Positions 3,365-18,173 of a DNA stretch of 21,473 bases are shown here, in pieces. The notes below the pieces were generated by a model that saw nothing but the letters and a program-made list of their open reading frames with translations, had not been told where the DNA came from and ran no database searches. Every line of letters starts with the position of its first letter. Position 1 is the first letter of the stretch. A program made the position numbers and the translations under genes. Origin of the DNA: a virus; the IMG/VR virus record IMGVR_UViG_3300022743_000029, positions 1 to 21,473 of that record; one strand, written 5' to 3'.

Positions 3365-6300
3365 TCAGGTTGCCGCGACCGTGGAGATCGCGTTGCCGTT
3401 CGGCATGGCCCGCTCCAGCAGCGCCGCCGTCTTGCCCGTGTTCCGTGCCAGCGTGACGGACTCAATGGTCTGCTGCTGCCGCAGGCCCACCAGCTCGTCC
3501 AGCACCGCTTGCATCAAGTCCTGCAGCCCATCGCCGCCGCCTGATCCATTCAGGATCTGCGACGTCTGGGCAGCGCTGAAGATGCGGGACGGCCCAGTGA
3601 CCTCCAGCTCAGGACCCGACTCACCCACCAGGCGCAAGCCGCCGCCGAAGTACCCGCCGTCAGCAAAGCCGGGCACCTTGCCAAGCAGCTTGGACGGGTC
3701 ATCGATCTGCGCCAATGTCGCCTTGAGGCTTGCCAGCGTCTGTGCCTGGATCAGGCTGTAGTCCAGCGATGACGACGCCGTGGCCTCCGCAGCCTTGAGC
3801 AGCGCGTCAGCGATCTGTGGCAAGGCGTCAATGGCCTTCTGGTCGCCCGAGCGGGCCTGCGCCATGCTCACCGCGAAGTTGGCCTGCAGCTCAGCCAGGC
3901 TTGCCGTGCTGGTGCCGGCTGCGCTTTCGATCTTCGCGATCTCGTCCGCGATGCCACTACCCAGACCCTTGACAGCATCCAGCAGGTCAGCGAAGCCGGA
4001 GCTGAGCCCCAGCACACTGCCCAGCAACTGGCGACCGGCGTCGGTGCTGGTGTCGATGCCCTTCACCAATGCCACGAAGCCATCGGCGGTCTTCGGCATC
4101 GTCAAGCCCAGCTTCACGAACTCCGCATTCATCGTGTTCGCCTTGAGCGAGGCACGCTGCGCATCGCTCAAGAAGCCCTGCTCAAACGCCGCCATCGAGT
4201 CCGACAACTGCTGCAAACCACCCGCGCCCTCGATCAGCGCATAGGACACCGCACGGCCATCCAAGCCCAGCAGATTCAGGCTGGTGCGCACATCGGTCAA
4301 CGCCTTGTACGTGGATGCCAGTTCATCAGCCGTGCCCGTGAGGCCTGACATGATGTTGGCGATGCCCAGCGCCGTCTGATCAACAATCGTCTCCGTCCAC
4401 TTCCCAATCTGGAAGCCGAACAACATGATCTTGTGCACCACCTTCGTGGTGGCCATGTCCGTCTCAGCCTGGATGAGCGACTGCCGAACCTGCTCAGCTG
4501 CAACATCGCCTTGCTTGTTCGTGATCTTCGCCAGGCTGATTGCCGTGATGCCCAGCTTCTTCAGCGCGGCCTGCGCCTGCTCAGTGCCAGACGCCACACG
4601 GATGACCGTCTGCAAGTAGCCTTCGCCAACGTGCTGGAAGCCCTCCAGGCCACCCAACACGCTGGACGCCATCTTGTCGCCCAACGCACTGAAGACCGCC
4701 GTCAGCTTGTCCTGAATCTGCGTGCCGCTCAGGCCCTGAAGGTCGATGCGACCAATGTCAACAACGAACGAATTGACCTTGTCGGTCACCGCCTTGAGGT
4801 TCAAGCCCAACGGACCTGCGGCAGCCTTCAGCGCGTCGGAATAGTTGCCGATCAGCGTGCCGACCTGGCGCTTGAATTCAGCATCCGCGTCGGTGTATTG
4901 CGTGCTGTACGTTGTGCTCTTGGACAGCCCCCAGAACGACGACGACGTCTCTTTGATGTCGTTGAAGTAAGACGCACTGAACCCCTTCGACACAATCGAC
5001 GCAACCTGCTGAGCAGCCGCCGTGATGCCCTGCCCGACGATCTCCGTTTTGCTGGAGCCGAACAGGTTGCCGATGATGCTGCCGATCTTGTCGTGCAGGC
5101 CATTGAACAGCCCGAACGTCAACACATCGAGCACGCCCGTCACCGTGCCCGCCGTGGTCGAGTTGAACCAAGACTTGGTGGTGCCGGTCTTGATGTTCGA
5201 TCCAGACGCCTGGAGCGTGCCCGACTGCACCAACAGCGTCGCCATGGAACCAATGTTGCCTTCGATGGCCGTCAAGCTGGCCGCCATCGAGGCGCTGTAA
5301 CGCATCGTCATCTTGTCCACTTCCTTGAGCGCCTCCAGGCCCTTGGTGATCGACTCGCTCTTTGCCGACTTGTCGCCAAGCACGGTGCCCGTGCCGTCGT
5401 TGTTGTTCTGCGGCAGCGACCCATGCGAGCCGCCACCGCCGAACACGCTGACGCCCAGCGCACCCAGCGCCGCCACCGTCGCACCCAGCGCCGCCAGGTT
5501 GAGCGGGAAGGGCAGACCCGCCATGGACGACACCGCCGCTTCCACGGCCTTGGCCGCAGTGCGCAGGCCAGATTGCGCGATGGAGAACAGCGAGTAGCCC
5601 GACTCGGACGTGGCCTTGACGCCATCGCCCGCGACCTTCTGCGCCACTTCCGCATCCACCAAGCTGGACTTGATCACCGCCGCCTCAATAGCGCCGGCCA
5701 GCTCAGCCGCACGCAGCACTTGCTCCGTGAGCGCCATGGCCTTGTAGCCGGCCGTCTTGGTACCGAAGAAGCCCTTTGCCGCCCCGGCCAGCGCGGCATA
5801 GCCGTTGAGCTGCGCAGCCTGGTGGTGCGCTTCGACCTTGGCGAGCTGGGCCGCATTACCTGCCGCGGCCTTCTTCTCTTCACCGTACCGGCGCTGTTCA
5901 TCCACGAGCTTGGAGAAGCCCTGAACGAACACACCCAGCGACTGGCTTGCTGCGTCGAAGCCGGCCGCCATGTCCTGACCGATGCCGGAGTTGATGTAGT
6001 CGTCTGCCGACTTGGAACCACCCTTGGCCTTTAGGTCCGCCAGCTCCGTGAGACGCTGGGCCTGTTCGCGATAGTCGCTGCTCAGCCGGCCAGAGAGATC
6101 CACGGACTCGGCGGCTACAGCCTGCGCCTCTTTGTCTGCGGCGGCCTTGCGAAGCTGAGCGATCTCAAGCACATGCAGGGCTGCCGCGCTTTGCCCAATC
6201 GCATCGTTCGCCACACGCTGAAGTGCGATCTGCTCATCCAGCTTCTGAATGTCGTCAGCACGCTTCTGTGCTGCCGCCTCGTTCTCCTTCGCGGACTCCG

Positions 6301-7795
6301 ACATCCACTTGACGTTGGATTCCAAAGACCTGTTCTCTTCCAGCAGCCCCTTCGCCCGCTTCAGATCGGCGTCAGACAAAGACATCTTGCCTTCGGCGAG
6401 CTGATGGGTCATCTCAAGGCCCATCTTCTCGCTTTCAGTCAGCTCGCGCCCAATGGCAGCCTGCTGCTGCAGGGACTCGTTGGCCAGCAGGATCTTGGAC
6501 ACAAACTCAGCACCACCCTTGATCTGGCGGTCGCGCAACTCTTGGGCCTTGCGGGCAGCTTCGGCTGCAGCCTTCTCCGCTTCAGCCTGACGCTTTGCAG
6601 CCTCTGCTGCCGCGTCAAGCTGGGCGCGGATATCCAAGTCTTTCTTGGCACCCTTGGCGGCGGCCTGCACGTCCTTCAGGTCAGCCATGCGGGCGCGCAG
6701 CTTCTCGCCCATGAGCTGCTGACCCCAAATGGCGCTGATGTCTGAGCCAGTTTCTGATGCAACCACAGCCACGCCAGAGAAGCCCTTCTTCAGGTCTTCC
6801 CAAGCACCAGCCATGTCGCCCGACTTGAGCTTCAACACCGCCTCATAGATGCCACCAAAGAGCACAGAGGTACCGGCAGCAATGCCTGCGATGAGCTTGC
6901 CCAGCATTGGCAGCAAGCTATACAGGCCCTGACCAACGTCAAGCAGATAGGTGAGTGCCGTGAACGCCCCTCGCGCCCATTCAGCAAAGGTTCCATCCTT
7001 GGCGAGCTTCTTGATCTCTTCCTTCAGCCCACCACTGCCGCCAGTCACGTCAAGCACGGCCTGGCTCATCTCAAACAGCGCGGGCGTCAAGCCCGTCGCC
7101 AAGTCCTTCTTCCAACCTTCAGAGTTCTTGCGCAACGCGGTCAGGTTGTCGCCGAAGGCATCGGCCTGAGCCGCCTGCAGATCGCGCGCCGCCTTCTGCT
7201 GATCGGTCAGGCCAGCAGTCACCTCGTCGGCCTGGTCGGCCAGATCAGCCAGGAAAGGCAGCAGCTTCGCGCCTTCCTTGCCGAACAGGGCCTGAGCTGC
7301 AGCGCTCTTCTCCGCACCATCCTTGAAGCCGCCCATGGATTTGGCGACCATCAGCATCTGGTCTTCAGGGCTCAGGCGCTTGAAGTCGTTGAAGTTGATG
7401 CCCAAGGCCTTCAGCGCCACGGCCGCACCCTTGCTGTCCTCGTCCGCCGTGCCCATGGACTTGGCCAGCTTGCCCATGGCGCCCACGATGGTGTCAATGC
7501 TGGTCTCGGTGTACGCACCAAGGCCCTTGAAGGCGCCCAGCGCGGCCACGCTTGCACCCGTCTGAATCGACAGGTCGTGCAGTGCCGCGCTGGCGTCCAG
7601 GGAGCTTTTGATCATCCCCGCGAAGGCGGCGACAGAGCCGACGCCCACCAGGCCAACAAAGGCGCGCTTGGCCAGATCCACCGCACGCTGAATTTCAGCC
7701 ATGGACGTGTTCACCAGCTTCTTGGCGTCGTCCATGTCCTTGCGCAGGCGCGCCAGGTCGGCCGCCATTTCGATGGTCAAACCGCCGATGTTCAT
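3365..7795 (-). CDS. Tail tape measure protein
   Basis: 1476 residues, the largest gene in the window. The N-terminus (MNIGGLTIEMAADLARLRKD) is typical of tape measure proteins: it contacts the tail tip and is helical. Hydrophobic stretches occur at about 45-62, 280-322 and 760-790. An Ala/Lys/Glu-rich coiled coil lies at about 380-420 (AAEAAKRQAEAEKAAAEAAR). The C-terminal part carries GGGLRLVGESGPELEVTGPS at about 1380-1400, a motif often seen near tape measure C-termini. The protein sets tail length during assembly and is later ejected into the cell. At the usual 0.15 nm per residue, 1476 residues predict a tail of roughly 220 nm (inference). The ATG at 7793-7795 overlaps the preceding stop (ATGA) and has AGGAG six bases upstream. 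Confidence 0.95.
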   Translation of the reverse strand: MNIGGLTIEMAADLARLRKDMDDAKKLVNTSMAEIQRAVDLAKRAFVGLVGVGSVAAFAGMIKSSLDASAALHDLSIQTGASVAALGAFKGLGAYTETSIDTIVGAMGKLAKSMGTADEDSKGAAVALKALGINFNDFKRLSPEDQMLMVAKSMGGFKDGAEKSAAAQALFGKEGAKLLPFLADLADQADEVTAGLTDQQKAARDLQAAQADAFGDNLTALRKNSEGWKKDLATGLTPALFEMSQAVLDVTGGSGGLKEEIKKLAKDGTFAEWARGAFTALTYLLDVGQGLYSLLPMLGKLIAGIAAGTSVLFGGIYEAVLKLKSGDMAGAWEDLKKGFSGVAVVASETGSDISAIWGQQLMGEKLRARMADLKDVQAAAKGAKKDLDIRAQLDAAAEAAKRQAEAEKAAAEAARKAQELRDRQIKGGAEFVSKILLANESLQQQAAIGRELTESEKMGLEMTHQLAEGKMSLSDADLKRAKGLLEENRSLESNVKWMSESAKENEAAAQKRADDIQKLDEQIALQRVANDAIGQSAAALHVLEIAQLRKAAADKEAQAVAAESVDLSGRLSSDYREQAQRLTELADLKAKGGSKSADDYINSGIGQDMAAGFDAASQSLGVFVQGFSKLVDEQRRYGEEKKAAAGNAAQLAKVEAHHQAAQLNGYAALAGAAKGFFGTKTAGYKAMALTEQVLRAAELAGAIEAAVIKSSLVDAEVAQKVAGDGVKATSESGYSLFSIAQSGLRTAAKAVEAAVSSMAGLPFPLNLAALGATVAALGALGVSVFGGGGSHGSLPQNNNDGTGTVLGDKSAKSESITKGLEALKEVDKMTMRYSASMAASLTAIEGNIGSMATLLVQSGTLQASGSNIKTGTTKSWFNSTTAGTVTGVLDVLTFGLFNGLHDKIGSIIGNLFGSSKTEIVGQGITAAAQQVASIVSKGFSASYFNDIKETSSSFWGLSKSTTYSTQYTDADAEFKRQVGTLIGNYSDALKAAAGPLGLNLKAVTDKVNSFVVDIGRIDLQGLSGTQIQDKLTAVFSALGDKMASSVLGGLEGFQHVGEGYLQTVIRVASGTEQAQAALKKLGITAISLAKITNKQGDVAAEQVRQSLIQAETDMATTKVVHKIMLFGFQIGKWTETIVDQTALGIANIMSGLTGTADELASTYKALTDVRTSLNLLGLDGRAVSYALIEGAGGLQQLSDSMAAFEQGFLSDAQRASLKANTMNAEFVKLGLTMPKTADGFVALVKGIDTSTDAGRQLLGSVLGLSSGFADLLDAVKGLGSGIADEIAKIESAAGTSTASLAELQANFAVSMAQARSGDQKAIDALPQIADALLKAAEATASSSLDYSLIQAQTLASLKATLAQIDDPSKLLGKVPGFADGGYFGGGLRLVGESGPELEVTGPSRIFSAAQTSQILNGSGGGDGLQDLMQAVLDELVGLRQQQTIESVTLARNTGKTAALLERAMPNGNAISTVAAT

Positions 7796-8169
7796 CGCTT
7801 CTCCTTTGGTGTCTCTTTGCGCATGCGCGCCACAGCCTCAGCCACAGAGGCGGCATCGACCTGGACGAGGGTGTCCAGCTCCCACGAGTTCAGCCGCAGC
7901 CCATGGAGCTGCGACCAAGCCGCGATATCGGTGTAGGTCAAGGGATGCGGCCCCATTGCCGTGCGGCGTCCGGCAGACAGCATCACGAACACATCCCACA
8001 GCGGCCTGACCGGCGCTGGCACCTCTGCCAAGAGGCGGGGATCTACCCGCCCCGTGGTGGTGGCCAGGCGCTGCAGGTGCGTACGCAGTGATGCGCCGTC
8101 CGGCTCGACCTGGCCCAGCTCAATTTCGCGCTTCGCCGCTTCGATCAGGTCGCGGCGGAGCGCTGAATA
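7792..8169 (-). CDS. Tail assembly chaperone C-terminal part, read only after a -1 frameshift (T-like)
   Basis: This frame encodes 125 residues beginning YSALRRDLIE and ending RMRKETPKEKR. It has no ATG or credible ribosome site near its beginning. The only early start-like codon is a TTG at 8029-8031, which would discard about 46 well-behaved residues. Protein-like sequence starts exactly where the upstream chaperone frame ends (the two frames overlap at 8145-8169). In many long-tailed phages such a pair is the G/GT system: ribosomes slip back one base on a few percent of passes to add the T domain, and GT bridges chaperone and tape measure. PLTYTDIAAWSQLHG and RLNSWELDTL match the general look of T-domain segments. 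The stop overlaps the tape measure ATG. Confidence 0.72.
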   Translation of the reverse strand, partial: YSALRRDLIEAAKREIELGQVEPDGASLRTHLQRLATTTGRVDPRLLAEVPAPVRPLWDVFVMLSAGRRTAMGPHPLTYTDIAAWSQLHGLRLNSWELDTLVQVDAASVAEAVARMRKETPKEKR

Positions 8170-8630
8170 AAAGCCTCGCGCTCATCCAGCGCGGCCTTGA
8201 CCTGGTCACGCAGCCAGCGACGCTTCGGGTCGGTGTAGATCTGGCGGGCCACGTCGGCGCTGAATGGCACCGGCTTGCCGCCGATCACCAGGTTCTCCCA
8301 ACCCAGCGTGAAGGCCACCAGTTGGTCGGTCTCTTCCAGCTCGTCTTCTTCCGGGTCGCCCAGTTGCACTTTGCCGGTCTTCATCAGGCCGGCGCGCATG
8401 CGGCGCGCACGGTCGAAAGCAGCGCGCTTGCGAATGGCGTGCTCAGGGCCAGCCAAGACGAACTTGACCGGCGTCGGGGCACCCGTTGCGGGGTTCTTGA
8501 TCGTGACCGTGCCCGAGGTCACGTCTTCATAGTCGTCGATGTTGAAGACGCCCATGTCGGAGGCTTGGGCCAGCATCAGGTTTGCCACGTCGGTGGCGGT
8601 GACGGAAGACGTATCGGTAGCGATGTTCAT
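8145..8630 (-). CDS. Tail assembly chaperone (G-like)
   Basis: 161 residues, between tail tube and tape measure genes, the canonical place for the G chaperone that coats the tape measure before tail-tube assembly. The N-terminal half holds FNIDDYEDVTSGTVTIKNPA and a beta-type segment. The C-terminal half is helical and strongly charged (KRAAFDRARRMRAGLM, DPEEDELEE, DERE). It ends in QRSAAT at a TGA at 8145-8147. Ribosomes slipping at the TTTT at 8169-8172 would instead continue into the T frame, giving a product of about 279 residues. The start is ATG at 8628-8630 (MNIATDTSSV). The ribosome site is weak (GCGAGC) and lies next to one arm of a 9-bp inverted repeat, which may limit its translation. 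Confidence 0.8.
   Translation of the reverse strand: MNIATDTSSVTATDVANLMLAQASDMGVFNIDDYEDVTSGTVTIKNPATGAPTPVKFVLAGPEHAIRKRAAFDRARRMRAGLMKTGKVQLGDPEEDELEETDQLVAFTLGWENLVIGGKPVPFSADVARQIYTDPKRRWLRDQVKAALDEREAFIQRSAAT
8148..8181 (-). promoter_or_regulatory. Probable programmed -1 ribosomal frameshift window
   Basis: The -1 frame is closed by a TGA at 8182-8184 and the zero frame by a TGA at 8145-8147, so any switch must occur between them. The only slippery-looking run inside is GAG GCT TTT ATT on the minus strand, where tRNA-Phe on TTT (8169-8171) can re-pair with TTT at 8170-8172 after slipping one base. The next codon is then TAT. It is not a canonical X XXY YYZ heptamer, so efficiency may be low. 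No clear downstream pseudoknot was worked out. Confidence 0.6.
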
Positions 8631-8756: not shown

Positions 8757-9992
8757 TCAGGCCTGTGCGTCCTGAATGGAGATCGTGGTCTTCTCGGTGG
8801 CGACGCCCGTGCCGCCGTTGACGTTCAGCAGCGCCTGGAAGGGGAAGGTCTGCACCAGCCCGTTTTCGCCGTCGTTCTTGGCGGCCCCGCCCAGCTTCAG
8901 GCGGGGCACCACGAAGGCGATGAAGTCGGCCGCCGCCGTGTTGTCGGCCGTGAAGGCTGCAACCAGGTCAATTTCCGACTCGTTGACGAAGGCGTCGCGC
9001 ATCGTCGGGCCATCGAAATAGGCTGTGAACTGGCCGGTGACCACAACGCGACCAGGGAACAGGTTGGGCACGGTGTTGCTGCCCACGACCGGGTCACCGC
9101 TGAAGGTGGGGTCGATCTCCAGGCTCATGCCGGTGATCGTGGCCACAGCCACGCCGCCGACACGCACCACACCGTTGACCGAGGCCAGGGTGCCCGTGGT
9201 GGTCACGGTGGTGGGCGTGGTGTAGTACTGCGCTGTGGTGGCAACGCCGCCGCGCTTGGTGGCCGTGTCTGCCAGGTCTTGCCCCATCAGGTCAAAGTCC
9301 ACGGTGGCCATGCCCGTGGGCGGCAAGGCCACCGACACCTTGTCGATCTTGTTGCCCAGGAACAGTTCGGACTGCACCAGATCGCTGTACCAGTGCTCCA
9401 CGGCCACGCTCTTGTCGGTGTGGCCGGAGGTCGGCACAAAGGTCTTCTTGCCGGCCACGGCCACGGTGGCACCGGTCACCGGGCCTTCTGCGACCATGGC
9501 AGAGGCATTGAGCACGATGACGGTGGCAACCGTCGCCGTCAGCCCGGTGATCAGCAAGTTCTTGTTGATGTTGGCCGCGTTGAACGTGCCCACCGACAGG
9601 CGGATCACATCGCCCACCTTGAAGCCGTCGGTCAGGTAGCTGCCCGCAGCGCGCGTGAGCGTGTAGGGGCCGGTGCCGGCAATCGTGATGCCGGCACCGG
9701 CCGTGGATGCGCCAGCGGTGAAGTCGCGCTTGAAGGCTGCAGCGAAGAAGTCCGCATAGGTCTTGCAGCTCAGCTCACCGCTGATCTTGCCGGCCACGCG
9801 ACGCACGCCGTGGCGGTAGTCCGCCACCTGCAGGTCAGGGCGCAGCTCGTTGGACTGATAGGTGTCCTTGTTCAGATCCAGGGTGGACTGAACGCGGCGC
9901 AGTTGCTGGCCGCTGGCCTGGCCGGGGGCCGTGCCAAAGGTGGTTTCGATCTTGTACGCTACCTGCTTGAACAGGCCTGATGCGATGGGCAT
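8757..9992 (-). CDS. Major tail tube protein
   Basis: 411 residues starting MPIASGLFKQVAYKIETTFG, with AAGGAG about seven bases before the ATG. N-terminal features typical of tail tube proteins are KQVAYKIETTFGTAPG, RPDLQVADYRHGVRRVAGKI and SGELSCKTYADFF. The rest is Thr/Val/Gly-rich beta structure with DFDLMGQDL and, near the C-terminus, DGENGLVQTFPFQALLN. This protein stacks in rings around the tape measure to form the flexible non-contractile tail tube. It is larger than minimal tube proteins of about 200-250 residues, so it probably carries an extra surface domain in the middle (about 90-200, GFKVGDVIRLSVGTFN and following). The hairpin after its stop and its good ribosome site fit a highly expressed structural gene. 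Confidence 0.85.
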   Translation of the reverse strand: MPIASGLFKQVAYKIETTFGTAPGQASGQQLRRVQSTLDLNKDTYQSNELRPDLQVADYRHGVRRVAGKISGELSCKTYADFFAAAFKRDFTAGASTAGAGITIAGTGPYTLTRAAGSYLTDGFKVGDVIRLSVGTFNAANINKNLLITGLTATVATVIVLNASAMVAEGPVTGATVAVAGKKTFVPTSGHTDKSVAVEHWYSDLVQSELFLGNKIDKVSVALPPTGMATVDFDLMGQDLADTATKRGGVATTAQYYTTPTTVTTTGTLASVNGVVRVGGVAVATITGMSLEIDPTFSGDPVVGSNTVPNLFPGRVVVTGQFTAYFDGPTMRDAFVNESEIDLVAAFTADNTAAADFIAFVVPRLKLGGAAKNDGENGLVQTFPFQALLNVNGGTGVATEKTTISIQDAQA

Positions 9993-17840: not shown

Positions 17841-18173
17841 TCACCCCCCCTTCCCCTTGCGTTGCCAGTGGTGGCGGGGGTCAATGGGGATGCCGCTCGC
17901 GTCGCAGCCCAGCACCACACCAGACCGCTCAAGCCGTTGCTTGTGCCTGTCGTGACAGGTCTTGCACAACGACTGGTGGTTGCCCTTGTCCCAGAACAGG
18001 GCCTGGTCACCACGGTGCGGCACGATGTGGTCAACCACTGAGGCCGCGACAACCTGACCCATGCGCATGTGATCAGCACAGAGGGGGCGCGACCTCAGGA
18101 AGCCTTCGCGGTATCGCTGCCACCTGCTGCCGTAACCTCGTGCCGCCGAACTCTTGCGGTCGTCAGCCTTCAC
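17841..18173 (-). CDS. HNH endonuclease, packaging-associated
   Basis: 110 residues from a GTG start at 18171-18173 with GAGGGG upstream. Core motif: VVDHIVPHRGD with D48-H49, then FWDKGNHQSLCKTCHDRHK with N65 and H74. Zinc ligands appear to be C32, H35, C70 and C73; many relatives have CxxC where this one has CADH. N-terminal SAARGYGSRWQRYREGFLRS is typical of HNH proteins beside phage terminases. Such proteins are needed, in HK97 and others, for TerL-dependent cutting at cos. It lies between the Q-controlled terminator and TerS. The C-terminus is basic (HWQRKGKGG). Confidence 0.92.
   Translation of the reverse strand: MKADDRKSSAARGYGSRWQRYREGFLRSRPLCADHMRMGQVVAASVVDHIVPHRGDQALFWDKGNHQSLCKTCHDRHKQRLERSGVVLGCDASGIPIDPRHHWQRKGKGG

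Follow-up and report, generated by a model that had tools for sequence, protein, structure and literature searches.

Overlapping chaperone frames in a tail gene module

The window analysed here, that is, the whole 21,473-base stretch of a metagenome-derived IMG/VR virus record, carries on its minus strand a tailed-phage module of small and large terminase, portal, capsid, tail tube, two chaperone frames and tape measure. The small terminase gene is directly preceded by a 110-residue ORF (17841-18173, minus strand) that looks by eye like an HNH endonuclease (DHIVPHRGD...CKTCHDRHK); an HNH endonuclease ORF adjoining the small terminase gene is a frequent arrangement in phages. Both chaperone-family frames are placed between the upstream gene for the tail tube protein (8757-9992, minus strand; PF18906 Phage_tube_2, E 2.4e-32) and that for the tape measure protein (3365-7795, minus strand; phrog_7740 tail length tape measure protein, E 2.3e-39). 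The zero frame (8145-8630, minus strand) encodes a G-like tail assembly chaperone of 161 amino acids (phrog_313, E 6.6e-10). The second, T-like frame lies in -1 relative to it and, counted from the predicted slip (YSALRRDLIE...), occupies 7792-8169 on the minus strand, with 125 sense codons and a stop. Residues 40-111 of this frame match Pfam PF23812 Phage_TAC_18 (E 1e-14; 54.9 bits against a gathering cut-off of 27), and its terminal TGA at 7794-7792 overlaps the ATG of the tape measure gene (ATGA).

The coordinates given for this overlap in the earlier note, which did not mention the strand, are all correct on the minus strand. A TGA at 8145-8147 ends the zero frame and another at 8182-8184 closes the -1 frame upstream; the part open in both frames is confined to 8181-8148 (34 nt, 11 codons), in keeping with the shared span of about 11 codons that had been described. 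From the upstream TGA to the TGA at 7794-7792 the -1 frame spans 129 codons, and the claim that it has no start of its own holds, the first ATG, GTG or TTG being the TTG at 8031, at codon 51 and inside the PF23812 match; later candidates are GTG 8022 and ATG 7983. Similarity among relatives begins at the first codon after the predicted slip, from which the frame had been described as protein-like. A start-less frame with a curated chaperone domain, recurring in more than 20 distinct relatives, is far beyond chance.

That T is a separate protein, translated by coupling from one of these three codons with no frameshift, is a very improbable explanation. Such codons do exist in the frame, and public records often begin T well inside the homologous region, as in the loci L003 and L004. 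However, all three starts lie inside or beyond the start of the PF23812 match, while the similarity among relatives begins just after the slip, and independent initiation would leave without reason both the T-ending codon before the Phe codon and the hairpin described below. As the window record is derived from a metagenome, the break between the frames might also be ascribed to faulty assembly or gene decay, but more than 20 distinct loci, some of them in isolate phages and one in a bacterial genome, show the same break, and the chance of such an origin is negligible.

The TTTT run and its conservation

The sole plausible slip run within the overlap is, as had been proposed, the TTTT of GGC-TTTT-ATT (8169-8172, minus strand), which is read in the zero frame as GCT TTT ATT near the end of the G ORF (...GAG GCT TTT ATT CAG CGC TCC GCC GCG ACC TGA). 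By reading of the sequence, this is the only point in the overlap where a tRNA moving back one base could re-pair fully. The run is preceded by GGC, not three identical bases, and does not form a canonical X_XXZ_ZZN heptamer; it does contain a Z_ZZN tetramer, U_UUU at 8172-8169. All Z_ZZN tetramers have been measured in E. coli, where U_UUU is among six that are shift-prone, ranking third with a stimulator, behind A_AAG and U_UUC in that order; without a stimulator these tetramers, U_UUU included, are barely shifty (Sharma et al., PMC4066793). IS1 and IS3 elements use U_UUU among their tetramers, and the spacing of stimulators at -1 tetramer sites is 5-8 nt downstream (PMC4066793). PRFect lists a motif called 'twoonefour', derived mostly from annotated tail-chaperone frameshifts, which going by its name fits GG-C-TTTT (PMC10885494). 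The earlier description of the site as a less usual signal is thus right as to the lack of a canonical heptamer, but the site is less exotic than implied, given that U_UUU was already known to be shift-prone in E. coli and the site is compatible with the name of the PRFect motif. Since U_UUU has been measured in E. coli and is used by IS elements, and the name 'twoonefour' fits, the site in the window belongs to a known, minor class.

Relatives were recovered by alignment-based and pattern searches. A T-profile search returned 25 viral loci and one locus in a Mitsuaria genome, and a DNA pattern search returned 24 stretches; the window, three isolate phages and the loci from the T-profile search make up 23 distinct sequences. 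No match came from the phage collection, either at the DNA level or with the G protein, from viral contigs queried with the T frame alone, or from genome contigs queried with the G protein, and an alignment of seven G sequences was too diverged to serve as a query. In the public records of L003, L004, L009 and L012, T is either a separate hypothetical protein with an internal start or is omitted, and the joined G-T product is absent; the record of L004 labels its G gene a branched-chain amino acid ABC transporter.

The closest relative, the IMG/VR contig L001, has a G protein 68% identical to that of the window, yet the overlap is identical letter for letter. Where the two share a residue, they use the same codon at 14 of 15 positions over the final 15 codons of G, as against 52 of 93 upstream. 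Failure of TTTT to be conserved where both frames are had been set beforehand as a refutation of the proposed slip; within the subfamily this check favours the slip, all 23 distinct sequences having T-TTT or, in one, T-TTC, a count to be read with the caveat that one of the two search peptides includes the Phe of the -1 frame and so favours the discovery of T-TT loci. Nine loci found independently of that peptide (L001, L003, L004, L009, L044, L045, L052, L063 and L066) agree. Across the window and its 22 distinct relatives the codon before Phe is GCT, CGT, CAT, AAT, AGT, TCT or GAT, although T-ending codons make up only 3-28% of those in G. As this codon specifies Ala, Arg, His, Asn, Ser or Asp, the T in its third position is not required by the G protein. 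The stop of G follows seven residues past the Phe in nearly all loci.

At the shift codon, thirteen of the 23 distinct sequences have A_AAU_UUU or A_AAU_UUC. The window and nine others have no canonical heptamer, their TTTT being preceded by GGC, CCG, GCA, GAA, AAG, CTC or GGA. Among distant relatives, those from Pseudomonas, Vibrio, Variovorax and Caulobacter have U_UUU_UUC or U_UUU_UUG, and Pasteurella has G_GGA_AAC; where TTTT is lost at such a distance, another recognised shift site is found at or beside the Phe codon. An explanation centred on GG-C-TTTT as a whole, of the 'twoonefour' type, would draw on the fit of the motif name in PRFect (PMC10885494) and on the occurrence of GGCTTTT also in L001 and L052. 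Nevertheless, because the three bases before TTTT vary both in the close group and beyond it, the first triplet is not part of the conserved signal, which makes this explanation unlikely. Slippage of RNA polymerase on the T run, giving an mRNA one base longer from which the fusion would be made by ordinary translation, is a further alternative, as bacterial RNA polymerase can slip on T runs; however, four Ts are very few compared with the nine of the bacterial case, and even T5C5 requires special context (PMC5009743), so that this origin of the fusion is extremely unlikely.

A downstream hairpin and the predicted frameshift

Beginning 5 nt after TTTT, and hence within the 5-8 nt expected of a stimulator, which it is predicted to be, the 5' arm of a hairpin (GCGCTCCGCCGC; 8152-8163, minus strand) can pair with a 3' arm (GCGGCGAAGCGC; 8128-8139, minus strand) with one A.C mismatch. 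The stem of 12 bp, including this mismatch, has a free energy of -23.1 kcal/mol; the earlier note makes no mention of it. It is stabler than expected from dinucleotide shuffles (z -2.97) and, when the T frame is recoded synonymously, stabler than 99.6% of the variants (z -2.52, p 0.004). The synonymous z averages -1.39 across 23 loci, with -3.64 in L063, -3.13 in L044 and -2.88 in L066, but it is near -0.7 in L043 and L045, and L003 has no structure there. The idea that hairpins are stronger at tetramer than at heptamer sites was rejected: the means are -19.0 and -16.8 kcal/mol, but with a Mann-Whitney p of 0.25 and kinship as a confounder.

In the group to which the window belongs, the outer stem is nearly invariant, with double changes at some inner pairs; because the outer stem hardly varies, support from covariation is weak. 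The Bradyrhizobium-type group has a shorter stem with about the same start and another 3' partner, and the stem of L052 has a third, so that three lineages (represented by the window, L004 and L052) would pair with three different downstream segments. A stem kept at a fixed distance while its partners change is better evidence for the hairpin than covariation. A pseudoknot between the loop CGACCTG and the downstream CAGGTCG was considered, but a pairing as good is found in 7% of shuffles; it is not claimed, because no relative keeps it. A Shine-Dalgarno-like GAGG directly before GCTTTT was dropped as a candidate stimulator, being too close, where the spacing of such -1 stimulators is roughly 10 nt.

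The comparative evidence supports, as a prediction, the earlier proposal that a -1 shift at TTTT joins the G and T tail chaperones; the probability that a programmed -1 ribosomal frameshift of the lambda type makes G and a minority G-T fusion is put at about 0.9. With the Phe codon UUU (8171-8169) occupying its A site, a ribosome would pause on meeting the hairpin that begins 5 nt further on. Its tRNA-Phe would move back one base on U_UUU onto another UUU, and UAU UCA GCG CUC (YSALR...) would then be read into the T domain. This would be a tetramer slip of a single tRNA, that for Phe, rather than a tandem heptamer slip, since the Ala tRNA that reads GCU would pair poorly with GGC. The predicted products are mostly G, with some G-T fusion of about 279 amino acids. 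In lambda, G and G-T bind the tape measure protein and recruit the tail tube protein (PMC5009743); by analogy, binding of the tape measure may fall to G of the window, and recruitment of the tail tube protein to the T part. These chaperone roles, like the slippage itself, its rate and the order in which the tRNAs would move, are what we infer from the arrangement.

Known systems and a probable change of shift direction

As in lambda gpG and gpGT and their counterparts in dsDNA tailed phages, there would be a short chaperone and a minority fusion, here predicted. The predicted -1 shift late in G, the start-less T frame overlapping another chaperone frame and the tape measure gene directly after it also resemble the lambda case, and a conserved slip site lies in the overlap. 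By contrast, lambda uses the heptamer G_GGA_AAG, where the window has a U_UUU tetramer and a downstream hairpin, and the protein families here are phrog_313 and PF23812, the likeness drawn here to lambda G and T being one of arrangement. The phage G/G-T frameshift device, already well known, appears here with a minimal slip signal. The Z_ZZN sites of IS1 and IS3 share the U_UUU motif, and their structures stand 5-8 nt downstream, compared with 5 nt for the hairpin; they differ in lying in transposase genes and in that the measured IS3 stimulator is a pseudoknot (PMC4066793), whereas the window has a phage tail gene and a simple hairpin. The annotation-derived 'twoonefour' of PRFect fits GG-C-TTTT by its name (PMC10885494), but the first three bases are unconserved in this chaperone family, and the site is better described as a tetramer. 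Bradyrhizobium phage ppBdUSDA122-1 (L004) has homologous G and T frames, a -1 arrangement, the same Phe codon and a similar stem start, but differs in its canonical A_AAU_UUU heptamer, shorter stem and different 3' partner.

As a clean natural case, the family has a slippery heptamer whose P-site half comes and goes among relatives, with the A-site half, the fusion and the position of the hairpin retained, and homologous phage genes would allow slippage by a single tRNA to be compared directly with tandem slippage. It also carries a warning for annotation: predictors limited to heptamers miss such fusions, and T genes are given false late starts.

Another direction is seen at AAC/AAT TTT CGA in Curvibacter phage P26059A and Limnohabitans phage DC31, where T lies in +1 relative to G, as it does in twelve IMG/VR loci. 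These homologous G/T pairs of freshwater phages have UUU_C with CGA as the next codon (L005 at 4294, L006 at 4252, L068 and L070-L080, at about 2500 in most), and in some of them both frames are open together for less than 20 nt. UUU_Y is a +1-prone tetranucleotide in bacteria (PMC5009743). One locus, L069 (about 2480-2520), reads ACA AAT TTT CAG, with A_AAU_UUU and T in -1, and is the sister of the Curvibacter phage in the T tree (support 100/99). As this -1 locus is nested within the +1 group, the direction of the shift has been reversed at the same Phe codon. The T tree requires at least two changes of direction and eight of site class. Tail chaperones with both -1 and +1 shifts are known from haloarchaeal viruses, so the mixture is unusual but not unparalleled, and the +1 relatives could make it possible to see how a recoding signal changes direction in evolution. 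On balance, the Phe codon seems to have acted as a fixed pivot around which direction and helpers vary (U_UUU, A_AAU_UUU and U_UUU_UUN for -1; UUU_C-CGA for +1), with at least one return to -1, in L069; preservation would then have applied to the G-T fusion and a shifty tRNA-Phe codon rather than to the shift direction.
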